Positions 36,211 to 58,938 of a stretch of 64,000 nt of DNA are shown one piece after another. Both the position numbers and the translations under genes were made by a program. The stretch's first letter is position 1; each line of letters begins with the position of its first letter. This DNA comes from an uncultured Ruminococcus sp. (GTDB lineage: Bacteria > Bacillota > Clostridia > Oscillospirales > Ruminococcaceae). The stretch is taken from assembly GCA_902787825.1 (NCBI GenBank), contig CADAHS010000002.1, forward strand, positions 62,001-126,000, in the 5' to 3' direction. Under the pieces are notes generated by a model. The model ran no database searches, was not told where the DNA came from, and saw only the letters and a list, made by a program, of their open reading frames with translations.

Positions 36211-39200
36211 TTATACGCTCATTTTTGCGACTTCTTTTGCAAGCTTGTCGGGTACGGCTACTGTTCCGCCGAAGATGTAGAGCTTGTTTGGTTTTTTGTT
36301 TTTCAGGAAAGATTTCTGTGCATCTCTGAGAGCGCTGTCTGCGAGAAGCAGAGGTGCTTTCTGGTTTGCTGCGAAAACTCCTCCTGCAAGTGCGTCAGGG
36401 AAATCAAGACCCTTGGCAACGCATACAGTTTTAGAGTTAAGCAGACCTGCGAAATACTTGTTTATCATCACGCAAGTTTCGTATCTCTGAGCGCCATCGA
36501 AACGCTTAACATTTTTCTTTGGCAGAGCCTTCTTGATGCTGTTTTCGATAGCTGCTGGAACTGCAACTTTACCGCCTACAATGTAGACGTTCTTAACGCT
36601 GCCCTTTACCTTGTTGAGGTAAGCGAGAATGTTGCTGTCAAGATTTTTCTTGCTTGGGTCAACGTAGAGTATCGGTGCACCCTTGAGAGCTGCGACCGGT
36701 GAGATCGAAAGTGCGTCTGCGAATGCTTTGTTTGTCGTGAAGAAAACATCTGTCGGAGCTTTTTTAGTCTTTGCCTGTAATGCCTCAGCGACTCTCTTGG
36801 AGGTCTCAAAGCAGTTACTGCCGCTAATGATCTGAGTAGTGTACTTCTTCTTCAGATCGTCAAGTGTACCCTTTTTGAGGGCTTTGTTTGTGTTTACGAT
36901 AATAACTTTCTTTGCCTTCAAGCGAGCGAGCTCAGCCTCGGTCTGCTTGGTAACGATGTTTGGATTTGCAAGCAACAACGGAGCGTTGTACGCCTTAGCA
37001 AGCGGCACTGCAATGAGTGCGTCCTGGAAGGTCATTGCGTCGGCGATTATGACTGTGTCTGAGGTCGTTTTGTGGCTTGCCTTGGAGAGCATCGCTGCAG
37101 TGTCGTAGCGGTTAGCTCCTGCGTAGCGAACGACTGCGTTTTTGACCGGTCTTGTTTCTGTTTTCTTGCAAACAGAGCAGATGCGCTTCTGGGTCGATGT
37201 GCCCTTGTCGACATTGAACGAGGTCGTAGTCCAATCGGAGAATTTGTGACCTGTCGTCTTGATTGTCTTAGTCTCGGTCTTGCCGCAGACTGAGCACTTT
37301 CTTGTCTGTGTTCCGTCTGCCTTGCAGGTCGCTTTCTTAGTGGTTGTCCAATTACTGAACTTGTGGGCAACAGTATTCGTATATTTATCCTTATAGCTGT
37401 AACCGCACTTTGTACACTTGTGCAGCGTGTAGCCTTTAGCCGAACAGGTCGGCTTTACAACTGTTGCCTTGTAGCTGTGCCCGAGCTTTGCGATAGCTGC
37501 CGTTTCGGTCTTTTTGCAAACCGAGCAAGTTCTTGTTTTTGAGCCTGCCGCCGTGCAGGTAGCTTTCTTGGCGGTTTTCCAAGTGGAGAACTTGTGGGCA
37601 ACAGTATTCGTATAGGTATCCTTATAGCTTTCACCGCATCTTGTACACTTGTGCAGGGTATAGCCCTTCGTTGTGCAATTCGGTGCTACCTCTTCAGTTA
37701 CATAGTTATGGCTCTTAGGTATTGTTTCTGTTTTTTCATGACCGCACAATTCACAAATATATTTTTTCTCACCATCTTGTGTACAGTTTGAAGGCTTTGT
37801 GCTCAAAAGCTTATATTTATGATCACATTTAATGATATTGTACTTTATGCCTTTTTCCTTAGCAAACTTCTCCGCTGCCGAGTTTTTATAACAGTTTATT
37901 GTAAGATCTTCATTTTTAACATCCTCGTTAGTTACCCTGTCTAAAACATTCCCCATTGAACGAATGTGGATATCCGTTACACTCTCGGGAATAGTAATGC
38001 TTTTCAGATTTGGGCAATCGTCAAACGCATAAATATCAATATGTTTTACATTAACGGGGATCTTGACGTTTTTCAAATAAAAATTGCTTGAAACAGAATC
38101 ATTTCCAATAGTATCAACCGTTGAAGGAATCTCAAACTGCTGGTCTCTTCCGCTGCAATACTTTATCAGTTTTGTTTGTTTCTTATCATACAGCGAATTC
38201 TTATAAGATGAAAAATATTTATTATACTTATCAACACTAATGTTCTCAAACCGAGTATAGCTGAACAATATATAAGAATCTTCCAGATTACTTAACCCTT
38301 TTCCGATCTTTAATGTTTTCAGACGATTAGCATTATGGAACACAAGTAATCCTAATGACGTTACACTGTCCGGCAGGATAAGCTCTTTGATAAAACCATT
38401 CTGAAAGAAGGCACGTCCGATGCGAGTAATGCCTTCATTTATGATTACCTTATCAAAACAAATATTCAGCTGGTTAGGCATTTCTGTTAATTGATTACCT
38501 GACTGATAACGTTGGTAATCAAATGTACTTCCAGTTCCACTTAATTCAATCGTATGATCCGGATAAAGCTTATAGGTAACATTATCCCCGCAATTACCCT
38601 TCGTATATATTTCTCTTGTATTATACTTATTGAGCTTGAAACCATTATCTTCAGCATACTTTTTAATGGCAGGACAGTTATTTACACAAAAAGAAAAATC
38701 AGAAAGTTTTGTTCTTATACCACTTTCCTTCTGGCTGTAACAGTATCCGAATGCCATATCGCCAATGCTTTGGATACTATCCGGCACTGCTATGGTTTTC
38801 ATTGATTCGCAGCAATAAAAAGCTCTTTCTCCTATTCTTTTTAACCCATCAGGCAAAACAACAGTTTCAAGGCCACCGCAATACTCAAAAGCATAATCAT
38901 CTATCTCTGTCAGAGTTTCAGGCAGATGTATTGCAACAATATATTTTTCCCAAAAGGCACCTCTTGCAATTTTAGTTACAGGCAATCCTCCTATATGATC
39001 GGGAACATATATATATACCCCTTCGTGTCCAAAAATTGAGGATCCGGTAATTGCGATCTCATTGTTCTCAACACGATATAATAGATCATATGAACTTGAA
39101 CCATTACCAACTTCAAAAGACCAATACTTATCCTCAGTTTGAGCAGCACTTGCGTAAATGCTCGCAGACTCAGCAAACGTGCTCCGCGGCAACATCGCCG

Positions 39201-39258
39201 CACTGCCAAAGGTCATACAGACTGCAAGTGCAACGCTCAATAGTTTTTTACATTTCAT
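36211..39258 (-). CDS. Large secreted surface protein: LRRs, CxxC repeats and CWB2 domains
   Basis: 1015 residues from ATG 39258 (TTGGAGG precedes; the open frame extends 65 codons further upstream without support). A signal peptide (MKCKKLLSVALAVCMTFGSA) is followed by LRR_5 repeats with CGDNVTYKLYPD-type strands (about 40-480). Then come five or six repeats of about 40 residues with the pattern CT-x3-GYTLHKCTRCG and ATC-x7-R-x-CSVCKKTE (about 490-720), which look zinc-ribbon-like or disulfide-paired. Three CWB2 modules end the protein (about 735-1015), with RYAGANRYDTA and FPDALAGGVFAA. Probable wall-attached adhesin. Confidence 0.88.
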   Translation of the reverse strand: MKCKKLLSVALAVCMTFGSAAMLPRSTFAESASIYASAAQTEDKYWSFEVGNGSSSYDLLYRVENNEIAITGSSIFGHEGVYIYVPDHIGGLPVTKIARGAFWEKYIVAIHLPETLTEIDDYAFEYCGGLETVVLPDGLKRIGERAFYCCESMKTIAVPDSIQSIGDMAFGYCYSQKESGIRTKLSDFSFCVNNCPAIKKYAEDNGFKLNKYNTREIYTKGNCGDNVTYKLYPDHTIELSGTGSTFDYQRYQSGNQLTEMPNQLNICFDKVIINEGITRIGRAFFQNGFIKELILPDSVTSLGLLVFHNANRLKTLKIGKGLSNLEDSYILFSYTRFENISVDKYNKYFSSYKNSLYDKKQTKLIKYCSGRDQQFEIPSTVDTIGNDSVSSNFYLKNVKIPVNVKHIDIYAFDDCPNLKSITIPESVTDIHIRSMGNVLDRVTNEDVKNEDLTINCYKNSAAEKFAKEKGIKYNIIKCDHKYKLLSTKPSNCTQDGEKKYICELCGHEKTETIPKSHNYVTEEVAPNCTTKGYTLHKCTRCGESYKDTYTNTVAHKFSTWKTAKKATCTAAGSKTRTCSVCKKTETAAIAKLGHSYKATVVKPTCSAKGYTLHKCTKCGYSYKDKYTNTVAHKFSNWTTTKKATCKADGTQTRKCSVCGKTETKTIKTTGHKFSDWTTTSFNVDKGTSTQKRICSVCKKTETRPVKNAVVRYAGANRYDTAAMLSKASHKTTSDTVIIADAMTFQDALIAVPLAKAYNAPLLLANPNIVTKQTEAELARLKAKKVIIVNTNKALKKGTLDDLKKKYTTQIISGSNCFETSKRVAEALQAKTKKAPTDVFFTTNKAFADALSISPVAALKGAPILYVDPSKKNLDSNILAYLNKVKGSVKNVYIVGGKVAVPAAIENSIKKALPKKNVKRFDGAQRYETCVMINKYFAGLLNSKTVCVAKGLDFPDALAGGVFAANQKAPLLLADSALRDAQKSFLKNKKPNKLYIFGGTVAVPDKLAKEVAKMSV

Positions 39259-39395
39259 ATACCAAACCTCCAATTTGATTAAATGTGTTACCATTTTTTG
39301 TTTTTTCAGCTTAACTATAGCACATTTTTCCGAAAAATTAAAGTGCATTTCTAAAAATTGTATACCTGCACAAATTTTCCGTTCATAATTTGGCA
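39259..39395 (-). promoter_or_regulatory. Conserved family leader, copy 2
   Basis: Minus strand: TATGAACGGAAAATTTGTGC directly followed by AGGTATACAA, then TATAGTTAAGCTG and TTGGAGG. It shares order and spacing with copies 1 and 3. Confidence 0.65.
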
Positions 39396-39399
39396 CACA

Positions 39400-39428
39400 A
39401 AAAAGCTCCCACGATCGTGAGAGCTTTT
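39400..39428 (-). terminator. Terminator of the 39434-42007 gene
   Basis: Minus strand AAAGCTCTCACGATCGTGGG then AGCTTTTTT. The stem-loop is directly followed by the leader of the next family member. Confidence 0.75.
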
Positions 39429-39433
39429 GTTCG

Positions 39434-42007
39434 TCATATGCTGTTCTTTGCAATGTCTGTTATGTGATCATCGGGAACTGCGTTTGTTCCGCCGAATGTG
39501 GTGATGCTGTCTGCGCTTTTTGCTTTCAGATAGGCTTTTTGCTCATCAAGCAGGTTCGGGGACTTTGCAAGCCCGTTGATAAGAAACAGCGGTGCTTTGT
39601 TCTTTGCGGCGTAAACTCCGCCTGCAAGAGCATCCGGGAAATCCATTCCCGTTGCGACACAGATCTTTTCGCCTGTGAGAACGTCAGAGAACTTCTTGTT
39701 GACCTCAACACAGGTCAGGAATCTGGTGCTGCCTGCAACTCTCGCTGCCTTTGAAAGTCCAAGTGCTTTAGCTGCCTTTGATGCCATATCATTGCTGATA
39801 ACGCCTGTTCCGCCGATAACATATGCGTTCTTTACGCTGCCTGTTTTCTTGAGCTTTGCAAGGTATGCGGCTGTATCTGCGTTCAGCTCGCCTTTGGTCG
39901 TGAGGTAGATTATCGGAGCGTTCTTTGCTGCGGCAATTCCTCCGACTGAGAGTGCATCGGCATAGTTCAGACCGTAAACGAAGAACACGTCTGTCGGCTT
40001 TTGATTCAACTTTTCAGCGATCGCTGTCGCAGTGCCGAACCTTGTTTTGCCTGCGATACGCTCGGTTTTGAGCTTGTTGGTTTTAAGCGTCTTTTCGACC
40101 TTTTCGCTTATCGCACTTGTGCCGCCGAGAATGATGACTTTTTTCGCACCAAGGCGGTTGATCTCTGCAAGGGTAACGTCGGGGAGAGTGTCCTTTGCGG
40201 TCAGCAGGATCGGAGCATTGAGCTTTGTTGCAAGCGGCACGCCTGCAAGTGCGTCAGCGTAGTTCAGACCGAATGCGAGAATGACCGTGTCAGCCTTGTC
40301 AAACGAAGCCTTTGAGATCTCGACAGCGGTCAGGAAGCGGTTAGAGCCGGCGAGGCGGGTAACAGCGTTTTCGACTGTTCTTGTGATCGTTGCACCGCAG
40401 ACAGTGCACTTACCCGACTGAGTAATTGTGTTTTTCTTCAAGTTATAAGAGATGCTTCTCCAATCGTCGATAGAATGGTCAATTTTCTCAATTACTTTTT
40501 TCGTTCTGCTTAATTCTTTGTGACAGCCTTTACAATAAATGACTTCATCATAAGAACCTTCTTCTATACATGTAGCACTTTTAACATTCTCAGAAACCGC
40601 TTGATCTGGTTCGTGGTCGATCTTATCTGTCTTGGTATCTGTGTATTGTTTTCCGCAGCGTGAGCACTTGTGTAGCGTGTAGCCTTCCTTTGTACAGGTA
40701 GGTGGAACAACAGTTTCTACATAATTATGTCCCAATGCAGGGACATAATTATCCTTGTATGTATCCGAACATCTTGAGCACTTATGCTCGGTATAGCCGT
40801 CCTTTGTGCAGGTCGGGTCTACGATCGATGCTGAATAATCATGCCCCAGTTTTTTGACCTTGGGCTTTTCAGTCTTTCCGCAGGCTGTGCAGTATCTGAG
40901 TTTTTCGCCGTCTGTGGTACAAGTCGCTTTGGTGATAGTTTCCCAGTCAGACCACTGATGACCTGTTGCAGGAACAACTATTTGTTCCTCTGTAAGCATA
41001 TTTGTTGCATGGTTATCAGTGTAGTACTCATCTTCGTTATACACCCAATATTCCTTATTTCCTGGTTCTAAACAAGTTGGCTTTTTAGCATCGACTTTTT
41101 TTACATCTATGAGTTCATACTCAATATTACAGTTCTTTGAGTATACTTGACCTACTGAATCCTTGAAACAGCTTATTTTATATTCAGGATCTCTTTGTGT
41201 AAACTGATTATATCCATTCTTTTTATACAAATAATAGCCAAATGCATATTCTTTTATAGAGGTAACACTTTTGGGTATAATAATATGTTTTAATTTATAG
41301 CAATTATAAAAAGCACGAAAGCCAATATACTCTAAGCCATCTTCCAAAGTAACGCTGTTAATGCTCATACTGGCAAACCAATGATAATAGTTTCCCTCGA
41401 ATGATTCAGTAACTAAATGATAGCCTACAGGTGTTGGAGTATCATTATTTCCTCTGTTAACATAGCTTTCGGCTCTAGCAAAGGAATATGCACCAATTGA
41501 TTTTACACTCCCAGGGATTGCAACACTCTTTATGCTGTAACAATCAAAAAACGCATAATTACCAATGTTAGTTAATCCATTGGGGAATGCTATGCTTGTT
41601 AGGGCATTACAATTATAAAATGCATAATTACCAATATTTTTTACACCAGAACCGATTGTAACACCGGAGAGATTTGTGCAATTATTAAATGCATTATCTG
41701 CAATACTTGTTATTGTATCAGGAATTATTACTTTGGCTATGTTCTTGTTCCCCTTGAAGATAGTCCCAAAGCTAACAACATCTTTATCTTCAAACGAACT
41801 GGGAATAGTAACCGTTCCTCCGCCTCCATTGTATTTGGTCAGACTTATCGTGTTATCATCAAGTACAACATATTCCCAATCACCGTCTGAAACCGCACTC
41901 GCCGTTATGCTCGTACTCTCTCTGAAAACGCTCTCGGGCAACATCGCCGCACTGCCAAAGGTCATGCAGACCGCAAGTGCAACGCTCAATAGTTTTTTAC
42001 ATTTCAT
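39434..42007 (-). CDS. Secreted surface protein: LRRs, CxxC repeats and CWB2 domains
   Basis: 857 residues. Its signal peptide is almost identical to that of the 36211 gene (MKCKKLLSVALAVCMTFGSA). LRR_5 repeats run about 40-290 (NNCTNLSGVTIGSGVKNIGN type). CxxC repeats of the GYTEHKCSRCSDTYKDNY type run about 310-540. Three CWB2 modules run about 560-857, with RLAGSNRFLTAVE and FPDALAGGVYAA. GGGAGGTTTGATCT precedes ATG. Paralog of the two other large surface genes; probable adhesin anchored to wall polymer. Confidence 0.88.
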   Translation of the reverse strand: MKCKKLLSVALAVCMTFGSAAMLPESVFRESTSITASAVSDGDWEYVVLDDNTISLTKYNGGGGTVTIPSSFEDKDVVSFGTIFKGNKNIAKVIIPDTITSIADNAFNNCTNLSGVTIGSGVKNIGNYAFYNCNALTSIAFPNGLTNIGNYAFFDCYSIKSVAIPGSVKSIGAYSFARAESYVNRGNNDTPTPVGYHLVTESFEGNYYHWFASMSINSVTLEDGLEYIGFRAFYNCYKLKHIIIPKSVTSIKEYAFGYYLYKKNGYNQFTQRDPEYKISCFKDSVGQVYSKNCNIEYELIDVKKVDAKKPTCLEPGNKEYWVYNEDEYYTDNHATNMLTEEQIVVPATGHQWSDWETITKATCTTDGEKLRYCTACGKTEKPKVKKLGHDYSASIVDPTCTKDGYTEHKCSRCSDTYKDNYVPALGHNYVETVVPPTCTKEGYTLHKCSRCGKQYTDTKTDKIDHEPDQAVSENVKSATCIEEGSYDEVIYCKGCHKELSRTKKVIEKIDHSIDDWRSISYNLKKNTITQSGKCTVCGATITRTVENAVTRLAGSNRFLTAVEISKASFDKADTVILAFGLNYADALAGVPLATKLNAPILLTAKDTLPDVTLAEINRLGAKKVIILGGTSAISEKVEKTLKTNKLKTERIAGKTRFGTATAIAEKLNQKPTDVFFVYGLNYADALSVGGIAAAKNAPIIYLTTKGELNADTAAYLAKLKKTGSVKNAYVIGGTGVISNDMASKAAKALGLSKAARVAGSTRFLTCVEVNKKFSDVLTGEKICVATGMDFPDALAGGVYAAKNKAPLFLINGLAKSPNLLDEQKAYLKAKSADSITTFGGTNAVPDDHITDIAKNSI

Positions 42008-42762: not shown

Positions 42763-43695
42763 TTATTCTGTGAACAGTGGTGTTGAATAGTATCTGTCAC
42801 CACTGTCAGGAAGAAGAGCTACGATAGTTTTGCCTTTATTCTCAGGACGCTTTGCGATCTCAATAGCAGCGTGAATTGCTGCGCCGGATGAAATCCCGAC
42901 AGAGATGCCCTCTTTTTTAGCAAGCAGCTTTGCCTTAGCAAATGCGTCGTCATTTGATACAGCAAACACTTCATCATAGATGCCTGTATCAAGCACTTCA
43001 GGCACAAAACCGGCGCCGATACCCTGTATTTTATGCGCACCTGCCGTACCGTTGGAAAGTACAGGTGAGCTTTCAGGCTCTACAGCTACGACCTTGACAT
43101 CAGGGTTCTTGCCCTTGAGGAAGGCTCCTACTCCGCTGACTGTTCCTCCCGTGCCGACACCTGCAATGAAGATATCGACTTTTCCATCAGTGTCATTCCA
43201 GATCTCAGGACCGGTAGTGTTCTTATGGATCTCAGGGTTTGCAGGGTTTACAAACTGCCCGGGTATGAAACTGTTTTCGATCTCCTTTGAAAGCTCCTCT
43301 GCCTTTGCTATGGCACCTTTCATACCCTTTGCACCATCAGTCAGCACGATCTCAGCGCCATATGAGCGAAGGATATTCCGGCGTTCAACACTCATCGTTT
43401 CCGGCATTGTGATTATAATTCGATAACCCTTTGCAGCAGCGATAGACGCAAGACCGATGCCTGTATTTCCGGAGGTAGGCTCAATGATAACAGAACCCTT
43501 TTTGAGCAGTCCGCTCTGTTCTGCCTTTTCGATCATTGCTTTAGCGATCCTGTCCTTTACGCTTCCGGCAGGATTGAAATATTCAAGCTTTGCAAGTACC
43601 GTTGCTTCGAGTTCGAGATCATTCTCAACATTTACGATCTCAACAAGCGGTGTGTTTCCGATAAGTCCGAGTGTTCCTTTGTAGATGTTAGCCAT
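42763..43695 (-). CDS. cysK: Cysteine synthase (O-acetylserine sulfhydrylase)
   Basis: 310 residues. This PLP enzyme makes cysteine from O-acetylserine and sulfide. The PLP lysine is in [10 protein letters not shown], and the substrate loop is [13 protein letters not shown]. Start ATG 43695 follows AAAAAGGAGAGATACTT; the open frame upstream into metY is unsupported. It is 16 bp after metY and co-transcribed with it from the 45.2-kb promoter. Confidence 0.95.
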
Positions 43696-43711
43696 AAGTA
43701 TCTCTCCTTTT

Positions 43712-44992
43712 TTATCTGATAGCTGCAAATCCATTTTCAAGATCTGCAATAATATCGTCAATGTGTTCTGTACCGATGGAAAGTCTGATAGTATTCTGGT
43801 TGATGCCTGCATCACTCAGCTCTTTCTCTGAAAGCTGTGAATGTGTCGTAGACGCAGGGTGGATAACCAGCGACTTAACATCAGCAACGTTGGCAAGCAG
43901 CGAGAATATCTTCAGTGCGTCGATAAACTTCCAAGCCTCCTGCTTTCCTCCCTTGATGTCAAAGGTGAAAATGGAACCTCCGCCGTTTTTAAAATACTTA
44001 TTATAGAGTTCGTGCTGTGGATGATCCGGAAGTGATGGGTGGTTCACCTTTTCAACGAGCGGATTTGATGCAAGATATTCAACGACTTTCTTAGTATTCT
44101 CTGCGTGGCGCTCAAGTCTGAGTGAAAGTGTCTCTATGCCCTGTAAAAGAAGGAATGCATTGAACGGTGAGATCGCTGCGCCGGTATCACGCAGCAGGAT
44201 AGCTCTGATGTATGTCACAAAAGCTGCCGGACCTGCTGCTGCGGTAAAGGATACGCCATGATAGCTCGGGTTGGGAGCAGCAATGCCTGGGAATTTCTCA
44301 GCTGTCCAGTTGAATTTGCCTGAATCTACAATAATTCCTCCGAGAGTCGTTCCGTGTCCGCCGAGGAACTTTGTAGCAGAGTGTACAACTATGTCTGCGC
44401 CAAGCTCGATAGGCTTGATAAGGAACGGTGTACCGAACGTGTTGTCGATAACAAGCGGAATGTTATGCTCGTGTGCGATCTTGCTGAGAGCCTCAATATC
44501 CGGGATATCACTGTTAGGATTGCCAAGGGTTTCAATAAAGATCGCCTTTGTCTGCGGCTTGATAGCTGCCTTCACCTCGTCAAGATCGTGGATATTCACA
44601 AATGTAGACTCAACACCGTATATAGGCAGTGTGTGTGCAAGCAGATTGTAGCTTCCGCCATAGATAGTTTTTTGTGCAACGATGTGTTCGCCCTTGCCAG
44701 CAAGAGCCTGTATAGCGTAGGTGATAGCAGCTGCGCCTGATGCTACCGCAAGAGCTGCGACACCGCCTTCAAGTGCTGCTACTCTTTTTTCAAGAACGTC
44801 CTGAGTTGAGTTGGTAAGTCTGCCGTAGATGTTGCCTGCATCGGTAAGACCAAAACGTGCTGCTGCGTGCTCGGAATTATGGAATACATATGATGTTGTC
44901 TGATAGATAGGCACTGCCCTTGAATCTGTTGCGGGGTCTGCCTGTTCCTGTCCAACGTGAAGCTGTAATGTTTCAAATCTATAATTGCTCAT
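43712..44992 (-). CDS. metY: O-acetylhomoserine sulfhydrylase
   Basis: 426 residues, typical MetY length. PLP lysine motif is [15 protein letters not shown], with [14 protein letters not shown] before it. It adds sulfide (or methanethiol) to O-acetylhomoserine, giving homocysteine (or methionine). The acetylated substrate is consistent with the acetyl-type MetA encoded at 50570. AAAGGAGTAAATT precedes ATG. First gene of metY-cysK, behind a leader of about 190 nt with a short peptide frame. Confidence 0.94.
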
Positions 44993-50101: not shown

Positions 50102-50551
50102 ATGAAGATTAATACCAAGGTAGAACTGGGCATTGTTGCGCTCGCTGATATAGCGATCCATTCCGAAGAAGGAAAAGCTGTCCGTTCCTCGGACATTGCT
50201 CAACGTCAGAATATCTCACACAAATATCTTGAACAGATCCTTCTTATCCTGCGTCAGGGAAAGTTTGTGAGATCGCACAAAGGAATACATGGAGGATACC
50301 ATCTTTCACGTCCTGCTAATAAGATCCTTCTTTGTGATATCCTCAACACACTTGATAACAATATCCTTGCAAATATGTATGAGAAAAACGATGAGCAGCC
50401 CGATGGTATCCGTGCATCTGTCAACAACTGTTTGTGGTCAAATCTCAATAGCTATATGCGTCAATTCATCGAGAAAATGACGCTTGAGGATCTGATAAAA
50501 GAATACAAGCAGGGTCTTGCTGAAGAGCAAAACTATATGTACTACATTTAG
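50102..50551 (+). CDS. Rrf2-family regulator without cluster cysteines (CymR-like)
   Basis: 149 residues. The winged helix-turn-helix reads SSDIAQRQNISHKYLEQILL and SHKGIHGGYHLSRPANK. The region that holds three cysteines in IscR-like members has only one (NNCLW), as in CymR, the cysteine-metabolism repressor that works with CysK. It lies in the suf-metA operon, so it likely autoregulates. It is the best candidate for the protein that binds CCTAY-N7-RTAGG. Confidence 0.85.
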   Translation: MKINTKVELGIVALADIAIHSEEGKAVRSSDIAQRQNISHKYLEQILLILRQGKFVRSHKGIHGGYHLSRPANKILLCDILNTLDNNILANMYEKNDEQPDGIRASVNNCLWSNLNSYMRQFIEKMTLEDLIKEYKQGLAEEQNYMYYI

Positions 50552-50569: not shown

Positions 50570-51472
50570 ATGCCATTAAGATTGAAAGAGACCTTACCGG
50601 TCATTGAGAAGCTGAAAAAGGAAAATATATTTGCAATGACTGAGGAACGTGCGCAGCATCAGGATATACGTCAGCTCAAGATCGCTGTGCTGAACCTGAT
50701 GCCGGATAAGCAAAACACCGAACTGCAGCTTTTAAGACTGCTTTCCAATTCACCTTTGCAGATAGAGGTGACATTTATCAGGCTCGTAACACATCAGTAC
50801 AAAAACACCCCGGCATCATATCTTCTCAACAACTATCAGCCGTTTTATCAGATAGAAAACAAGTACTTTGACGGATTGATCGTTACAGGCGCACCTGTAG
50901 AAAAGCTGGAGTACGAAGATGTTGACTACTGGGGAGAGCTGAGCGCTATATTTGAATGGGCAGCGCTTCACGTTACCTCGACGCTTTATTTGTGCTGGGC
51001 AGCTCAGGCAGGACTGTACTATCATTACGGTGTACGCAAATCAGAGCTTGACAAAAAGCTTTCAGGAGTGTTCAGTCACACCATAACTGATCCGCAAAGC
51101 GAGCTTATGCGAGGGATCGACAAAAACTTTTATGCGCCTCATTCGAGATATACAGGTCTGAATAAAGATGATATACTCAGCAGCGATGATCTGACCATTA
51201 TAGCCGAGTCTGACCAGACAGGTGTTTATATCATCACAGATAACAAAGGCAATGTGTTCGTCAACGGTCATCCCGAGTATGATCTTTACAGGCTTGCAGA
51301 AGAATATATCCGTGATACCGACAAGGGGCTTTCGCCTGATGTGCCGAAAAACTATTTCCCTGACGACGACCCGGATAAAGAACCTGTGAGCCGCTGGCTG
51401 AGTGCATCAAACCTTCTGTTCACCAACTGGCTGAACTACTTTGTATATCAGATAACCCCATACGAGTTCTGA
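50570..51472 (+). CDS. metA: Homoserine O-acetyltransferase
   Basis: 300 residues of the MetA fold. Catalytic cysteine C142 is in YLCWAAQAG and the His-Glu pair in NGHPEYD. The residue at 111 is Glu (TGAPVE), which in studied MetA proteins marks acetyl-CoA rather than succinyl-CoA use. Its product O-acetylhomoserine feeds MetY. GGGAGGAAGGAAAT precedes ATG. Last gene of the suf operon, an unusual place for metA. Confidence 0.94.
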   Translation: MPLRLKETLPVIEKLKKENIFAMTEERAQHQDIRQLKIAVLNLMPDKQNTELQLLRLLSNSPLQIEVTFIRLVTHQYKNTPASYLLNNYQPFYQIENKYFDGLIVTGAPVEKLEYEDVDYWGELSAIFEWAALHVTSTLYLCWAAQAGLYYHYGVRKSELDKKLSGVFSHTITDPQSELMRGIDKNFYAPHSRYTGLNKDDILSSDDLTIIAESDQTGVYIITDNKGNVFVNGHPEYDLYRLAEEYIRDTDKGLSPDVPKNYFPDDDPDKEPVSRWLSASNLLFTNWLNYFVYQITPYEF

Positions 51473-51482
51473 AAAAACATCA

Positions 51483-51517
51483 AGAGCACTGCTAAACTAA
51501 AGCAGTGCTCTTTTTTT
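51483..51517 (+). terminator. Terminator of the suf-metA operon
   Basis: Perfect 11-bp stem AGAGCACTGCT / AGCAGTGCTCT with seven T. The convergent nif-like operon ends inside it. Confidence 0.9.
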
Positions 51518-51848
51518 AAAGTATTGCGTCCTCAATGAACTTTTTAAGTACCGCATCAATGCTTCCGCTGACCTCAAAAACTCTTACGTTTTTTGAAATA
51601 AGATATGCCGCTGCACCCTCGCCTATTTTCTGCACCAGCACAGCATCGCAGTCTGAGAGCAGTTCAATTATCTTATCAAAACGTGTGGTGTCGTGACCGA
51701 GTCTTTGCTGACAGACAGCGACTGCATCACGCACTTCAACAAAATCATAACCGTTTTCTTTGAGATCATAAACCCTGAAGAAATTTGCATGACCGAAATG
51801 TTCATTGACCGAAAACCCATCACTTGTTGCTGCTGCGACTCTTGACAT
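51516..51848 (-). CDS. NifX/NifB-C-type cofactor-binding protein (last gene of the nif-like operon)
   Basis: 110 residues of the dinitrogenase Fe-Mo cofactor family: VAAATSDGFSVNEHFGHANF at the N-terminus and CDAVLVQKIGEGAAAYLISK further on. Such proteins carry Fe-S precursor clusters. AAGGAGATCGTTATT precedes ATG. It lies 55 bp after the NifK-like gene and is the second such protein in the operon (see 56481). Both could shuttle a NifB-made cluster. Confidence 0.85.
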   Translation of the reverse strand: MSRVAAATSDGFSVNEHFGHANFFRVYDLKENGYDFVEVRDAVAVCQQRLGHDTTRFDKIIELLSDCDAVLVQKIGEGAAAYLISKNVRVFEVSGSIDAVLKKFIEDAIL

Positions 51849-51903
51849 AATAACGATCTCCTTTTAAAGCACAAGCTGCCGGATAAAACGGCAGCTCTTT
51901 TTA

Positions 51904-53244
51904 TCACTTATATGTTGCTAATGCGGTATTGTAAATATCCTCGATAACACGCAGACCGCCGGAATAGCCGACATAATTTGTTGTCAGAACGATACGGTAC
52001 GGTGTCGGGCAGGCGATCGAAAGAAAGTCCGCATTTATCTCTGCGGCAAGCTCTTTATCCCAGCCACTGCCAAGGATAAGTCCTCTGCCCTTGTGGTCAA
52101 GTCCTCTGATGAGATCCTGCATTGCTCCCGCATCCGGATCAAAGTACACGGGTATCTCACGCTTATCTGATGCAGACTTGATATCTTCTTTGATCTTCTC
52201 CTGATATTTTGCCGGAACATTATCAACAATAAACTGCTCCTTTGGAACAAGTCCGGTTTCGTGCAAAAGAAACTTTGTCAGACCTGTAACATAGCCCGCA
52301 TCATGCAGGATATGCACATAGCTTGGCAGTCCGTAGCGGAACTCAAGAAGAAATGTTGCAAGATTGTCTATCTCCTCATAGTATGCCTTTTCTTCCTCAG
52401 AAATAAATGCTCTTGCCTTCTTCTCGTCGATCTCTGCGCCGTTTTCAAGTGCAAAATCAACAACGCCGTTGAGGAACCTGGTCGTTTCATTTGCGCCGAT
52501 TGGCATATAACCGAACTGGTAATACGGCTGACCATAGCGTCTTTGCAGATTTTTAACGATAGGCTCGCCGTACCATGGCGATACAAACACGTTGAAGTTT
52601 GCCTTTGGTATGCTCTGCCACTCCTTAACGCCGCCGCTGTGTGGTCCGAAAAGAATATTGACTTTAAGTCCCAATCCTTCAAGAAGTCTTTTATACTCCT
52701 TGAGATTGCCCTTCCAGAACTGATCCTGGTAAGGAATAGATGCGATCAGATTGACCAGATTTTTCTCCGAACGTGAAGGGTTGTGCTCTTCAAACCTGCT
52801 CACATACTGGTCGATTATCGCATTCACAACAGCCGAGTGTGAAACATAGTTATTCGACTTGAAACCGGAGGTCTCAACGTGGACTATCGGTCTGTCCTCC
52901 TCGTACAGAAATTCGTCCGTAACGCTTGCTACATCATCACCGACGATACCTGCGGTACAGCCTGTAACTACGACCTGAAGATCAGTATCAAGTACCTTGT
53001 ATGTATTTTTGATTATATTGCGAAGTCTGTCTGTTCCGCCGAAAACTACCTCTTTCTCACTGAAGTTGGTACACGGCGCAGTCTCGCCGCCGGCATAACC
53101 TGCACTGCGTTCAAAAAATCCTTTTATCATTACGCCGCAGCCCGGTCCGGAATGGAGTATAGGCACTGCACGGGGGATCGCAACCACTGTTTGCAGCGCA
53201 CCTATCGCACAGGTATATCTCTCCTGTTCAATCAATCCTGCCAT
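51904..53244 (-). CDS. Nitrogenase-like component 1, beta (NifK-like) subunit
   Basis: 446 residues, shorter than NifK (about 520). P-cluster ligand positions are present: C12 (YTCAIGA), C36 (HSGPGCGV) and C95 (VTGCTAGIVGDD), spaced as in NifK. C58 (APCTNFSEKEVVFGG) is an extra conserved-looking cysteine. No other large insert is visible. It should pair with the NifD-like subunit as alpha2beta2. It clearly belongs to the nitrogenase superfamily but diverges from true NifK, so the substrate cannot be called dinitrogen. AAGGAGAATTCAT precedes ATG. Confidence 0.9.
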   Translation of the reverse strand: MAGLIEQERYTCAIGALQTVVAIPRAVPILHSGPGCGVMIKGFFERSAGYAGGETAPCTNFSEKEVVFGGTDRLRNIIKNTYKVLDTDLQVVVTGCTAGIVGDDVASVTDEFLYEEDRPIVHVETSGFKSNNYVSHSAVVNAIIDQYVSRFEEHNPSRSEKNLVNLIASIPYQDQFWKGNLKEYKRLLEGLGLKVNILFGPHSGGVKEWQSIPKANFNVFVSPWYGEPIVKNLQRRYGQPYYQFGYMPIGANETTRFLNGVVDFALENGAEIDEKKARAFISEEEKAYYEEIDNLATFLLEFRYGLPSYVHILHDAGYVTGLTKFLLHETGLVPKEQFIVDNVPAKYQEKIKEDIKSASDKREIPVYFDPDAGAMQDLIRGLDHKGRGLILGSGWDKELAAEINADFLSIACPTPYRIVLTTNYVGYSGGLRVIEDIYNTALATYK

Positions 53245-53256
53245 ATGAATTCTCCT

Positions 53257-54723
53257 TTACTTTCCCAAGAATGTGTACGGCTCCTGCTGAAGCCACCAAT
53301 CTGTATACGGATTTGACGAGTGCTTTGCAAGATTCTTTACAAACTCGTCATTCTCGATAGTTTCAAGAATGCGTTCACCGTAATTCACAAGACCCTCGTA
53401 GCCCATTCCGAAATGCTCATCTCCGACAAGCAGCGACGGGATACCAAGCTTTGCGCCCCACAGGGTCATACCGCCGTGACGAGCAAGCAGTATATCAGGC
53501 TTGATGCGGTTGAGTACGTTGACAAGCTCAAACTCCTGCTTGTTGCAGACGTTGTAGTTAGCCACATCTCCGTAATCCTCAACAGTGTGTTTGAGAGTAT
53601 CCGCACGCTCGTCCTCATTGTCGTACTGCGGATCGTGATGGAATATAGCAGCACCCTGCGGATCCATTCCAAGCTCCCTTAACAGAGCAAGCAGAGAGTG
53701 TCCGTGCGATGCGCCGGCTGTAACGTATGCAGTCTTGCCTTTGAGCTTTTCACGCAGCGCCTCTATCTTTGGCATATATTCTTCCTTTTTGCGGGCGAGG
53801 AATTTCTCGACCTCGTTTTCCTTGCCCAGTATCTGACCAAGCTCCCTGAACCAGCGGTCTGTCTGCGCTATTCCGTACGGAGGAGAATTTCTTATCTCCG
53901 GCACACCGAACGACTGCTCAAGCGCAGCACCCAGATAGCTTCCCAGCGTTGAGCAAGCCTGTACCGTGAGCGCAGCCTCACTGGAATAACTAAGGCTGTC
54001 AACGGTCGCAAACGGAGTGATGTAATTAGGCTCATATCCGAACTCTGCAAACCACTCACGGAAGATGTCGCTGCCCCAGAAATTTATAACGTTGATAATG
54101 TTTCTCTTTTGTCTTGCAGGCTTGATTATTTTTCTTGCTATACCATGATATCCTGCATCAAAGCCCGATGTCCACATCTTTGAGCGGAAGCCCTCGCAGA
54201 ACACTGCGACAACGGGTATGCCAAGCTCCTTCTGCGCAGCATTGGTAACGCTTTCAACATCGTCACCGATGATTCCCGCAGCGCAGGTAGTGATAACAAA
54301 AATCGCCTTTGGCTTTGCACGTTTAAAAACCTCACGGATCGCAGATTCAAGCTTTTTTGCACCACCGTAGATGGTGTCCTTTTCTTCAAGGTTGGTTGAG
54401 AATATCTTTCTCTGTGTGGGGTGATCCAACTGACGAAGATATGCGTTCACACGGTATGTGAATGCAAATTCGTGCAGACAGGTCGAGCAGCCGACAGGTC
54501 CGTGTGAGATTATTGCTGCGTCCTGAATAAGTGTCAGCGTACACGCAGCATTTGATGTTCCGCAGCCAAGGCATTGGCTGAAAGAACGGTTTTTGTCCTT
54601 GAGCTTTCCGCAGCCCGAGCAAGCTGAAACAAGCTCCTTTGCTGTTCCCTGAAAGCCCGTTATCGAACCCAGACGGATCTCTCTTATTTCGACCTCGGGT
54701 ATATCCAAATTGACTTTACTCAT
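53257..54723 (-). CDS. Nitrogenase-like component 1, alpha (NifD-like) subunit
   Basis: 488 residues. P-cluster ligands align: C54 (QCLGC), C79 (SHGPVGCS) and C147 (TTCAAGIIGDD). The cysteine that in NifD binds the active-site cofactor (C275) aligns with C247 in VQACSTLGSYL. A GYHGIA histidine (H183) sits near NifD H195. The second cofactor ligand, NifD H442, has no exact counterpart; H427 (GDEHFGMGYEG) is three residues off. The N-terminus has extra cysteines (C35, C38, C51, C61). GGAGAGTGCTTT precedes ATG. No NifE/NifN is present, so the cofactor is probably a NifB-type cluster. Confidence 0.9.
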   Translation of the reverse strand: MSKVNLDIPEVEIREIRLGSITGFQGTAKELVSACSGCGKLKDKNRSFSQCLGCGTSNAACTLTLIQDAAIISHGPVGCSTCLHEFAFTYRVNAYLRQLDHPTQRKIFSTNLEEKDTIYGGAKKLESAIREVFKRAKPKAIFVITTCAAGIIGDDVESVTNAAQKELGIPVVAVFCEGFRSKMWTSGFDAGYHGIARKIIKPARQKRNIINVINFWGSDIFREWFAEFGYEPNYITPFATVDSLSYSSEAALTVQACSTLGSYLGAALEQSFGVPEIRNSPPYGIAQTDRWFRELGQILGKENEVEKFLARKKEEYMPKIEALREKLKGKTAYVTAGASHGHSLLALLRELGMDPQGAAIFHHDPQYDNEDERADTLKHTVEDYGDVANYNVCNKQEFELVNVLNRIKPDILLARHGGMTLWGAKLGIPSLLVGDEHFGMGYEGLVNYGERILETIENDEFVKNLAKHSSNPYTDWWLQQEPYTFLGK

Positions 54724-54737
54724 AAAGCACTCTCCTA

Positions 54738-56480
<1,743 letters not shown>

Positions 56481-56505
<25 letters not shown>

Positions 56506-56852
56506 TTGTCAACCTCCCATTGTTTTTCTTCCATAAGCAGACACAACGCCTGCTCGATCTGAAGCGGCATCTGGTATACGGCGATCCCTTTGTGAGCCAC
56601 ATACTCCCTTGCACCGTAACCAATACGCTGTGCAACGACCGCACTTACGCCTTCAAGTGCTTCAAGCACATTGTCAAAGCCCGATTTGTCATGTGAACCG
56701 CCGTTGCAGGCTGGTAATACTTCTTTTTGCGCAACGATATCGCAGTCGAGTTTTTCTGTATCCAGCTGTGCAATATAAAATTTTTCCGCTGCTCCGAAGT
56801 GCCTGTCGATATTGACTCCGTCAGAGCTTGCAAATGCTATCTGATAGATCAT
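56481..56852 (-). CDS. NifX/NifB-C-type cofactor-binding protein
   Basis: 123 residues: MIYQIAFASSDGVNIDRHFG at the N-terminus, VSAVVAQRIGYGAREYVAHK in the second half. The family binds NifB-co or related clusters. ATG 56852 is preferred to TTG 56870, although its binding site (ACGGTGAT) is weak; it starts 10 bp after the mccA stop, so reinitiation is likely. A CNGG cysteine replaces the usual pattern. Encoded directly before nifB, it likely receives the NifB product. Confidence 0.85.
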
Positions 56853-56862
56853 TATATCACCG

Positions 56863-57771
56863 TTATCCAAATAGTCCTGTGCTGAAATATCTGTCTCCCC
56901 TGTCCGGGAAGACCACTACGATATTTCCGCTGTCAAGGGTCTTTGCAAGTTTCAAAGCTGCTGCCATTGCAGCGCCTGATGAAGAACCGGCAATTATCCC
57001 CTCATTACGGGCAAGGTCACGAACGGTCGAGAAAGCCTCCTGGTCATTGACCTTGACGACCTTGTCAACAAGACCGATATCCATTGTATCGGGTATAAAA
57101 TCGTTTCCAATGCCTTCGATATTATAGTCAAAATGCTCTCCTCCGCCGATGGTCGAACCCTCGGGGTCTGCAAGCACTCCCTGAACGCCCGGATCCTGCT
57201 CTTTGATATATTTGACGATACCGGTATATGTTCCTCCGCTTCCGGCACCTGCAACTATATGCGTTACCTTTCCGCCGATGTCGTCCCATATCTCCTTGCC
57301 TGTTGTTTCATAGTGAGCAAGCGGATTATTAGGGTTTTTGAATTGCTCAAGCGAAATTGCGTCCGGGATCTGTGCTTTAAGTTCATCAGCTTTTCTCACT
57401 GCGCCAAGCATTCCCTCAGCACGTGGAGTATTTATCACCTCTGCCCCCAGCGCACGCATAAGCGCCTGCTTCTCTGCTGAAAACTTCGTGGGGACTGTAA
57501 AGATGACTCTGTAGCCTTTTCCAAGTGCTGCGAATGCGATCCCCAGTCCCGTATTGCCTGCGGTCGCTTCAATGATCGTGCCGCCTTTTTTTAGTCTGCC
57601 CTCTTTTTCAGCGGAAGCTATCATATACTCGCCAATACGGTCTTTAACGCTTCCGGAGGGATTATACATTTCAAGTTTAGCATAAATATGTACATCGGGG
57701 GAGACCCCCATATTCACAAGCTCAACAAGCGGCGTATTGCCAATGAGCTGATGCATATTTTCATACAGCAT
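56863..57771 (-). CDS. mccA: O-acetylserine-dependent cystathionine beta-synthase (MccA-like)
   Basis: 302 residues. PLP lysine is in NPSGSVKDRIGEY and the phosphate loop is EATAGNTGLG. The segment DPEGSTIGGGEHFDYNIEGI is typical of the MccA/YrhA branch rather than CysK. It condenses homocysteine with O-acetylserine to cystathionine. It lies 12 bp after mccB. In Bacillus mccA and mccB form a reverse-transsulfuration pair; here they lead the nif-like operon. Confidence 0.88.
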   Translation of the reverse strand: MLYENMHQLIGNTPLVELVNMGVSPDVHIYAKLEMYNPSGSVKDRIGEYMIASAEKEGRLKKGGTIIEATAGNTGLGIAFAALGKGYRVIFTVPTKFSAEKQALMRALGAEVINTPRAEGMLGAVRKADELKAQIPDAISLEQFKNPNNPLAHYETTGKEIWDDIGGKVTHIVAGAGSGGTYTGIVKYIKEQDPGVQGVLADPEGSTIGGGEHFDYNIEGIGNDFIPDTMDIGLVDKVVKVNDQEAFSTVRDLARNEGIIAGSSSGAAMAAALKLAKTLDSGNIVVVFPDRGDRYFSTGLFG

Positions 57772-57783
57772 TTTTTTCTTACC

Positions 57784-58938
57784 TCACTGTTTAGATTTAT
57801 TGATCGCCTGCTCTATGTCTGACAGAATATCGTCTATATCCTCTATTCCGATGGACAATCTTATAAGACCGTCTGTGATGCCGACTTTTTTGCGAATTTC
57901 CTCGGGTATAGAAGCGTGAGTCATTGTAGAAGGGTGGCAAACGAGAGATTCAACTCCGCCAAGACTTTCCGCAAGCGTTACAAGCTCCAGACTCTCAAAG
58001 AACTTTTCAATATCATATCCGTCCTTCAGCTCAAACGAGATCATCACACCGCCGTTTTTAGCCTGAGATCTGTTTATTTCATATCCCTTGTCGGATTCAA
58101 GACCGGGATAATGGACACTCTTTACTGCGTTGTGTTCACTCAGGAACTTTGCAGCAGCCAGAGCATTTGAAACGTGTCTGTCAAGCCTTACTCCGAGAGT
58201 TTTTATACCTCTGATGAGCAGGAAACTGTCAAACGGAGGCAGAACACCGCCGGTCGAATTCTGTACAAATGCGATCTTATCAGCAAGCTCTTTTGTCTTT
58301 GCGATCGCAAGACCCGCTACAACATCGCTGTGTCCGCCAAGGTACTTTGTTGCGCTGTGGACAACGATATCAGCACCAAGCTCGATAGGTCTTTGCAGGT
58401 AAGGTGTCATAAATGTATTGTCCACAATTACAAGCAGACCGTGCTCATGAGCGATCTGCGCTATCCTTCTGATGTCCGTAACCGTCATAAGCGGATTTGC
58501 AGGACTTTCAAGAAGCACCGCTTTTACATCAGGTCCGATATCATTTTCAAACGACTCAGGATCTTCAGTATCGGAAATAGTGTAGCTTATATTAAAATGG
58601 TCAAACACGTTATTCAGAAGTCTGAACGTTCCGCCGTAAACGTTGGAGGAAATAAGTACCCTATCGCCGGAATGCAAAAGACTGAGTACAGCTGTCTCTG
58701 CGGCGAGACCGCTTGCAAATGCAAATCCCGCATATCCGCCCTCAAGCTCTGCGATAAGCTTTTCAAGCGCCTCACGAGTGGGATTCCCTGTTCTTGAGTA
58801 CTCATACCCTCTCATTTTTCCAAGTCCGTCCTGCTTGAAGGTAGAGGTCTGATAGATAGGGATATTGACCGCACCTGTGCGTTCATCTATCGCAATACCC
58901 CCGTGTATCAACGCTGTATCAATGCTTTTGTAACTCAT
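57784..58938 (-). CDS. mccB: Cystathionine gamma-lyase/homocysteine gamma-lyase (MccB-like)
   Basis: 384 residues. Cys/Met metabolism PLP family: VVHSATKYLGGHSDVVAG holds the PLP lysine, MRGYEYSRTGNPTREALE and ESLVCHPSTMTHAS are usual motifs. It cleaves cystathionine to cysteine. Start ATG 58938 follows GAAAGGAAAGACGGAT; another ATG at 58962 is possible (AGGTAAACT). First gene of the eight-gene operon. Confidence 0.9.
   Translation of the reverse strand: MSYKSIDTALIHGGIAIDERTGAVNIPIYQTSTFKQDGLGKMRGYEYSRTGNPTREALEKLIAELEGGYAGFAFASGLAAETAVLSLLHSGDRVLISSNVYGGTFRLLNNVFDHFNISYTISDTEDPESFENDIGPDVKAVLLESPANPLMTVTDIRRIAQIAHEHGLLVIVDNTFMTPYLQRPIELGADIVVHSATKYLGGHSDVVAGLAIAKTKELADKIAFVQNSTGGVLPPFDSFLLIRGIKTLGVRLDRHVSNALAAAKFLSEHNAVKSVHYPGLESDKGYEINRSQAKNGGVMISFELKDGYDIEKFFESLELVTLAESLGGVESLVCHPSTMTHASIPEEIRKKVGITDGLIRLSIGIEDIDDILSDIEQAINKSKQ

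Follow-up and report, generated by a model that had tools for sequence, protein, structure and literature searches.

Why should genes for a nitrogenase-like reductase lie in one operon with genes of sulfur amino acid metabolism, and what might such an enzyme reduce? The question is raised by a 64,000-nucleotide stretch of DNA (the window) from an uncultured Ruminococcus sp. (GenBank assembly GCA_902787825.1, contig CADAHS010000002.1, positions 62,001 to 126,000), in which a single tight minus-strand operon, mccB-mccA-nifX-nifB-nifH-D-K-nifX, occupies 51516..58938 with 8/8 genes present. A preliminary description of the window had listed these genes with their families and had proposed a reductase that frees sulfur from an organic C–S compound and passes it to methionine and cysteine. 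All eight genes were found as placed, and Pfam and NCBIfam agreed with the families named. The operon is, in our judgment, likely to encode a group IV-A (Nfa) nitrogenase-like enzyme that would cleave a C–S bond reductively to gain sulfur; the sulfur gene neighbours and the predicted metal-cluster ligands together suggest that the IV-A family as a whole breaks C–S bonds for this purpose.

For classification of the D and K subunits, three trees were built, all without IsrD, CfbD and Bch sequences: a quick D tree of 102 of 130 rows (20 near-identical Ruminococcus D and 8 short or odd rows were left out), a careful D tree of 57 of those 102 rows, and a K tree from which 23 Ruminococcus loci were left out. 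The quick D tree and the K tree carry SH-aLRT support only. In the careful D tree, one branch (98/98) contained every IV-A row (37) along with five ungrouped group IV rows, 35 of these IV-A rows made up a branch by themselves (98/98), and the window D fell with Endomicrobium in a 26-row clade (100/100); methylthio-alkane reductase (MAR; 7 rows) was supported at 90/93 and Nif at 100/100. The quick D tree placed the window and Endomicrobium proavitum in a 45-row clade (SH-aLRT 100) and MAR in an 8-row clade (100). The same split between IV-A and MAR was seen for K, where the window and E. proavitum shared a 46-row clade (SH-aLRT 100) and MAR again formed an 8-row clade (100). Neither the window D nor the window K fell inside the MarD/MarK clade in any of the three trees, and the best identity of D to any of the 8 MAR rows was at most 44%. 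By this phylogeny the window D and K are group IV-A (NfaDK) proteins. A D/K tree had been put forward as a check in the preliminary description; the clade in which it places the window includes E. proavitum, a claimed N2 fixer.

The nearest solved structures of both subunits belong to MAR. The best Protein Data Bank matches of D were 9FMG (E 3.4e-134), which is the Rhodospirillum rubrum enzyme (PMC12552129), and 9D9U chain A (7.6e-134), followed by nitrogenase at 4e-38; the best match of K was 9D9U chain C (3.9e-113), whose sequence is common to 9FMG, followed by nitrogenase at 3.5e-15. Passages of the same paper describe conversion of thioethers to methanethiol and a hydrocarbon using electrons from MarH, ATP and an [Fe8S9C] cluster, with no N2 reduction. 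Residues were mapped onto a MarD sequence whose numbering agrees with that publication. Cys54/79/147 of D, which the preliminary description had rightly given as P-cluster cysteines, align with MarD 66/91/158. For K, Cys12 and Cys36 were likewise as described and the third was one residue off, the cysteine being Cys96 and not Cys95; the three align with MarK Cys32/56/121. The predicted cofactor ligands of D are Cys257 and His416 (MarD C270 and H429), next to Arg415 (R428). All six predicted P-cluster cysteines and the Cys, Arg and His ligands of the MAR cofactor are thus kept in the window D and K.

This set is conserved across the clade. In 92 IV-A D rows, taken as those at least 50% identical to the window D and including many close Ruminococcus relatives, MarD C66, C91, C158, C270, R428, H429, C73, W195, F199, H375 and H376 were kept in 92/92. 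Two positions behaved otherwise. The position of MarD His194 is Ile in 40, Val in 25 and Met in 27 rows (Met183 in the window D) and His in 0/92, and His is present in 8/8 MAR rows; that of Gln74 is Thr in 40, Met in 24, Gln in 21, Ala in 4 and Val in 3 (Thr62 in the window D), and Gln in 8/8 MAR rows. Passages of PMC12552129 name His194 as one of several residues with a possible part in substrate binding or proton transfer, and call Arg428 with His429 a possible hallmark of MAR. The Arg-His pair occurs in 0/12 canonical NifD/NifE rows; among 18 other group IV rows the His is present in 15 and the Arg in 10, which extends the pair beyond MAR and IV-A. With the ligands kept and the His194 and Gln74 sites changed, we predict a MAR-type cofactor site and a different substrate side; because the pocket is unlike that of MAR (His194 to Met), the substrate probably differs too.

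Gene neighbourhoods were compared for the best 80 of at least 536 relatives with up to 10 kb on each side, a set that leans to close relatives and includes related loci, so that these are not independent. Neighbours were clustered by BLAST, only representatives of the groups being checked against Pfam and NCBIfam, and four sulfur markers were scored, namely PF01053-type, cysK/mccA-type, MetI-type and SsuC-type genes. PF01053-type or cysK/mccA-type genes were present in 54/80 IV-A loci. Without the 22 Ruminococcus-like loci the figure was 34/58, or 27/36 among loci of at least 14 kb, and any of the four markers was found in 41/58. As a control, eight canonical nif loci were taken from genomes that also carry IV-A genes (the 4.4-kb locus L195 was left out; two of the eight, L202 and L203, begin at a contig end and have a short flank on one side, and two of the genomes, G729 and G731, are nearly identical strains of one species). 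Each of the four markers was found in 0/8 of these. Within the eight genomes, a PF01053-type or cysK gene was present at the IV-A locus in 7/8 versus 0/8 at the nif locus. Fisher p values against the 0/8 control were 0.00014 (27/36), 0.0018 (34/58) and 0.0014 (7/8). MetQ- and SsuA-family transporters stand next to some members of the clade and point to imported organic sulfur, possibly of several kinds. In two Lachnospiraceae loci (L136 and L137), D/K are accompanied by a MetQ-type transporter and a protein of the M20 peptidase family, a layout that could fit use of N-acyl or S-alkyl amino acids. In Acetobacterium tundrae (L204, 11604-12644), a URO-D family protein follows K, recalling the methyltransferase homologs of mlp clusters described in passages of PMC10418091.

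Several loci carry IV-A and MAR-type genes in tandem. L105 (Ruminococcus UBA7013) reads metY-like gene, IV-A D/K, nifX, LysR, mccB, mccA, MAR-type D/K, nifX, nifB, nifH; in L077 (genome G233), IV-A D/K adjoin MAR-type D/K with mccA, mccB and an ABC transporter; and L146 holds MAR-type D/K (with D truncated at the contig end), a CBS-like gene, an mccB-like gene, IV-A D/K, nifX, a metY-like gene and a MetNIQ-type transporter. That the two types share neighbours argues for related chemistry on different substrates. In five MAR-type loci examined, PF01053 was present in two and any of the four markers in three; one of the five, L077, also has IV-A genes. The operon could itself encode a true MAR acting on the R. 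rubrum substrates dimethyl sulfide, ethyl methyl sulfide and 2-methylthioethanol, as the like cofactor ligands, the sulfur context and the closest solved relative would have it. We consider this unlikely. The D clades are separate (35/37 IV-A rows at 98/98, MAR at 90/93) and the K clades likewise, the His194 position is Ile, Val or Met in 92/92 IV-A rows versus His in 8/8 MAR rows, and two enzymes of one function side by side in L105, L077 and L146, and together in Ruminococcus albus, would be redundant. The earlier proposal of a C–S reductase feeding methionine and cysteine is partly supported: it agrees with MAR as closest solved relative, with the MAR-type ligands, the sulfur neighbours of most long loci and the tandem MAR-type loci, but the enzyme is not MAR itself, since neither D nor K belongs to the MAR clade and a cofactor-adjacent residue differs in 92/92.

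Further loci in Clostridia hold different group IV lineages in one stretch, with three D/K pairs each in L077 and L081 and two each in L079, L153, L155 and L163. Some of these multi-pair proteins have Gly, Asn, His, Thr, Phe or Ser at the position of MarD Cys73, and some lack the Arg of the Arg-His pair. The several pairs and their varied residues suggest more substrates than are known.

The window D is 71% identical to that of E. proavitum, and the cluster of that organism has the same gene set as the window: metY-like gene, SsuA-family binding protein, permease, ATPase, D, K, binding-protein fragment, nifX, mccB, mccA, nifB, nifX and nifH. The SsuA-family protein of this cluster scored 115.3 bits with TIGR01728, under the cut-off of 163.5, and its D scored 151.8 bits versus a nifD cut-off of 653.55. 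Within the family of an Endomicrobium metagenome-assembled genome, a D match was found in 8/76 genomes at E <=1e-20, five of them with one at 70-73% identity. Passages of PMC9147875, PMC11257099, PMC4995403 and PMC8399215 treat the E. proavitum enzyme as a functional "Group IV nitrogenase", and work on heliobacteria and Endomicrobia builds on that claim (in passages of PMC9147875, PMC11257099 and PMC8399215). N2 fixation is the only claimed function found for the IV-A clade, and it rests on this one organism.

On this account IV-A would be a nitrogenase with an Fe-only cluster, as E. proavitum is claimed to have, and the neighbouring sulfur genes would do no more than provide sulfur and cysteine for building its large clusters. 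Besides the 71% identity, the placement of D and K within the E. proavitum clade, the reported 15N2 incorporation and the presence of P-cluster and cofactor cysteines all favour it, and the supply idea would account for SUF, mccAB and metY nearby. We think it quite improbable nonetheless. The positions of MarD 195/199 and 73 are Trp/Phe and Cys in 92/92, whereas seven canonical NifD rows have Gln/His and Val; the Arg-His pair is of MAR type, and NifE and NifN were not seen in the window genome. The canonical nif loci of the same genomes are without these sulfur genes (0/8), and 7 of 37 genomes tested, all carrying IV-A, also have a canonical NifD (three above the cut-off, four at most 14 bits under it). 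According to passages of PMC12552129, N2 is not reduced by MAR, whose ligands are the same. Organic-sulfur transporters and tandem MAR-type genes are not explained by the supply idea.

Sulfite reductase was sought through its PF01077 domain. None was found in the window genome by a search that was positive in 11/14 control genomes, and none was found in E. proavitum or in the four other Endomicrobium-family genomes tested. Within Ruminococcus, PF01077 was present in 1/22 D-positive versus 4/7 D-negative genomes (Fisher p 0.0067), and in a hand-chosen list that includes five D-negative Ruminococcus it was present in 18/39 genomes. The contrast suggests that the operon is an alternative route to reduced sulfur, with a product other than sulfite. 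A further reading is a sulfonate reductase like isethionate reductase (Isr), which would release sulfite and which we regard as highly unlikely: neither the window genome nor E. proavitum was found to have a sulfite reductase to use that product. In passages of PMC11423573, Isr is a group IV C–S enzyme of intestinal bacteria, IsrD retains a single P-cluster Cys and neither the Cys nor the His of the cofactor, and IsrB is not NifB-like. The P-cluster and cofactor ligands are all kept in 92/92 IV-A rows and the maturase here is NifB-like. In favour of a sulfonate are the SsuA-family binding protein (under cut-off) beside the E. proavitum genes, the NMT1-type ABC genes near the window operon and the occurrence of Isr as a C–S enzyme in intestinal bacteria. 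Isethionate reductase itself was rejected by its cysteines, its maturase type and the lack of a sulfite reductase in the two genomes. A function in F430 or chlorophyll synthesis was rejected by the family scores of D and K, which were far under every Cfb and Bch profile cut-off, so that the preliminary description is not refuted on this point; H came closer, with 386.8 bits for the CfbC profile, under its cut-off of 402, but 458.7 for nifH, above its cut-off.

From the gene set, layout, ligands, clade and neighbourhoods, all read from the sequence, we infer a cofactor, a reaction, a product and a pathway direction as follows. NifB would build an [Fe8S9C] cluster, which the NifX-like proteins may carry, and the cluster would be bound in D through Cys257 and His416, with Arg415. 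NifH with ATP would deliver electrons through the D/K P-cluster to the cofactor site. The product would be a thiol, most likely methanethiol, or sulfide. MetY couples a thiol or sulfide to O-acetylhomoserine, and MccA with MccB converts homocysteine to cysteine. MetA and MetY would trap the product on O-acetylhomoserine to give methionine or homocysteine, the MetA product providing the acceptor for MetY, and MccA and MccB would take homocysteine on to cysteine. The presence of a reverse transsulfuration pair fits sulfur entering at the level of methionine or homocysteine, as from methanethiol or sulfide, and then passing to cysteine.

A number of observations weigh against reductive C–S cleavage by the IV-A enzyme. 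The chief contrary evidence is the published E. proavitum nitrogenase, which, like membership in IV-A (NfaDK), the preliminary description had overlooked; passages of PMC9147875 and PMC4995403 report 15N2 incorporation by this organism and give these as its only nif-like genes. Among the 58 non-Ruminococcus loci, PF01053-type and cysK/mccA-type genes are both missing from 24, and all four markers from 17; short contigs account for many of these 17, but L141, L143 and L144 exceed 20 kb. The sulfite reductase contrast is weakened by relatedness and incomplete genomes, one D-positive Ruminococcus genome has PF01077, and so do many D-positive genomes outside the genus. Lastly, R. albus and others also have separate MAR-type D/K, so that IV-A may do something else. 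Taken with the evidence above, we lean towards IV-A as a distinct family of C–S reductases with its own substrate, of which the E. proavitum "Group IV nitrogenase" would be a member and no nitrogenase.

Coordinates of the operon and its flanking sulfur genes are collected in Table 1. Intergenic gaps in gene order, from mccB to the second nifX, are 12, 10, -25, 28, 14, 12 and 55 bases, assuming the likely starts ATG at 58938 (mccB), 56852 (nifX) and 55595 (nifH). The best NCBIfam match of the mccB-like protein was bifunctional cystathionine gamma-lyase/homocysteine desulfhydrase (548.8 bits, under the cut-off of 594). NifB, described earlier as full, carries the radical-SAM core with HPCF, CX3CX2C and CXXCRADA motifs and has no NifX domain, scoring 263.9 bits with TIGR01290, under the full-length cut-off of 343.65. 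The NifH-like protein scored 458.7 bits with TIGR01287, above the cut-off of 394.35, and both cysteines named for it, Cys99 and Cys134, are present. An Rfam search at gathering thresholds for riboswitch or T-box control gave 0 hits within the window, which leaves a methionine or cysteine riboswitch unsupported.

Table 1. Genes of the window operon and of its left flank, with strand and basis of assignment
Feature	Coordinates	Strand	Basis
cysK-like cysteine synthase	42763..43815	-	groups with cysK/mccA proteins
metY-like O-acetylhomoserine sulfhydrylase	43712..44992	-	full-length PF01053; subfamily by eye
Rrf2-family regulator	50102..50551	+	named by eye
metA homoserine O-acyltransferase	50570..51472	+	best match acetyl form NF047918, 437.3 bits, under cut-off 460.5
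Second NifX-like protein	51516..51848	-	Nitro_FeMo-Co
K subunit of group IV-A nitrogenase-like reductase	51904..53244	-	Oxidored_nitro; C12/C36/C96
D subunit, group IV-A nitrogenase-like reductase	53257..54723	-	Oxidored_nitro
NifH-like reductase component	54738..55595	-	Fer4_NifH; likely start 55595
NifB core, radical SAM cofactor maturase without NifX domain	55624..56505	-	Radical_SAM/NifB; TIGR01290
NifX-like FeMo-co binding domain protein	56481..56852	-	Nitro_FeMo-Co, PF02579 above cut-off
mccA-like cystathionine beta-synthase/cysteine synthase	56863..57771	-	PALP; TIGR01136 above cut-off
mccB-like cystathionine gamma-lyase	57784..58938	-	PF01053; open frame extends to 58962

To the left of the operon lie cysK, a metY-like gene, a SUF operon, the Rrf2-type regulator and metA (SUF and Rrf2 named by eye). 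The regulator, which we take to be CymR-like, has relatives in 13/80 loci. To the right, mostly past the window end (L008), are an NMT1/SsuABC-type ABC transporter, a riboflavin-transporter-family ECF S component, a second metY-like gene, two LysR-type genes, metE and metF (the last three kinds by eye). The window genome (2.59 Mb, 85 contigs, 90% complete) has four full-length PF01053 enzymes, mccB and three metY-like. A PF00148 search of it returned six proteins, D, K and four divergent ones on contig C12, and no canonical NifD, NifE or NifN was seen among them, in keeping with the absence of NifE and NifN noted before; the best TIGR01282 nifD score was 145.5 bits versus a cut-off of 653.55. 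Contig C12 (L007, 121-12247, minus strand) carries two more nitrogenase-like sets, comprising two NifH-like and four Oxidored_nitro proteins, with hydE/hydF-like genes on one side and hypF/hypD-like genes on the other. Two R. albus genomes (L216 and L217) have such a double set accompanied by hypD, hypF, hydE and hydF, and in Clostridium luticellarii (L219) hypD and hypF accompany it; C. sporosphaeroides and A. tundrae have a single set, without hyp or hyd genes in the stretch read. Left of the sulfur genes, window positions 31021-32913 and 36211-42007 encode three large secreted-looking proteins with leucine-rich-like and cell-wall-binding-like repeats (by eye).

By its relatives the window genome belongs to Ruminococcus: named D matches at 94-98% came from uncultured Clostridiales or Ruminococcus genomes, many of them RUG-prefixed, presumably denoting rumen genomes, and from R. 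albus AR67 (95%) and R. albus 8 (94%). D (E <=1e-20) was present in 23/61 relatives, made up of 22/29 of the genus Ruminococcus (its own and two fragmentary genomes included) and one from another genus. In a phylum sample, a group IV D-type protein of any kind (E <=1e-60) was present in 10/398 genomes, its own included, and reached an identity of at least 52% in six of the nine others; in an order sample the count was 7/295, its own included, with two others at 59-61%. If the C–S reading is true, much of what surveys of rumen, termite and human gut count as "nifH" would be sulfur-scavenging genes. Cultured strains with IV-A exist in R. albus and E. proavitum.

Among known systems, Mo-nitrogenase NifHDK shares with the window the protein families, P-cluster cysteines, cofactor Cys and NifB; the window differs in having no NifE/N seen, no NifD active-site Gln/His, and a TIGR01282 score of 145.5 versus 653.55 bits. 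IsrBHDK, as presented in passages of PMC11423573, is alike in group IV membership, C–S cleavage, sulfur assimilation and gut members, and differs in an IsrD without two of the P-cluster Cys and the cofactor ligands and in an IsrB that is not NifB-like. MarBHDK of R. rubrum is closer: the P-cluster and [Fe8S9C] ligands agree, the Arg-His pair among them, as do Trp195, Phe199 and His375, the NifB-type maturase and the sulfur context. It differs in that D identity to the 8 MAR rows does not exceed 44%, D and K fall in clades apart from those of MAR, His194 is lost and Gln74 is replaced by Thr62 in the window D. The IV-A enzyme would offer a second candidate C–S chemistry on a nitrogenase-type cluster for comparison with MAR.

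In the literature, IV-A genes near type I mlp clusters share the subgroup name and the sulfur context, and passages of a preprint (PMC10418091) already propose from that proximity a role for IV-A in methionine salvage or sulfur use; Ruminococcus, mccAB and E. proavitum are not treated in the passages found. Passages of a 2026 paper (PMC13067680) place nifK and nifD next to cysteine synthase in a termite spirochete. A search mostly outside the subscription literature found no paper with a tested IV-A sulfur function or noting the sulfur genes of the E. proavitum cluster. As far as that search shows, recognition of the E. proavitum cluster as one of cysteine and methionine genes is new; so are the clade-wide MAR-type ligand set with its change at position 194, the paired nif-locus control, the loci in tandem with MAR-type genes, the contrast in sulfite reductase and the wide distribution within Ruminococcus. 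The closest system of all is E. proavitum NfaBHDK, which has the same clade, 71% D identity, nifB, nifX, nifH, mccA, mccB and a metY-like gene, and differs in its published role in N2 fixation and in an SsuABC-like transporter directly beside its D. In passages of the literature found, E. proavitum alone underlies the calling of a group IV enzyme a nitrogenase, and the link of the window operon to that claimed enzyme is more interesting than its resemblance to MAR.

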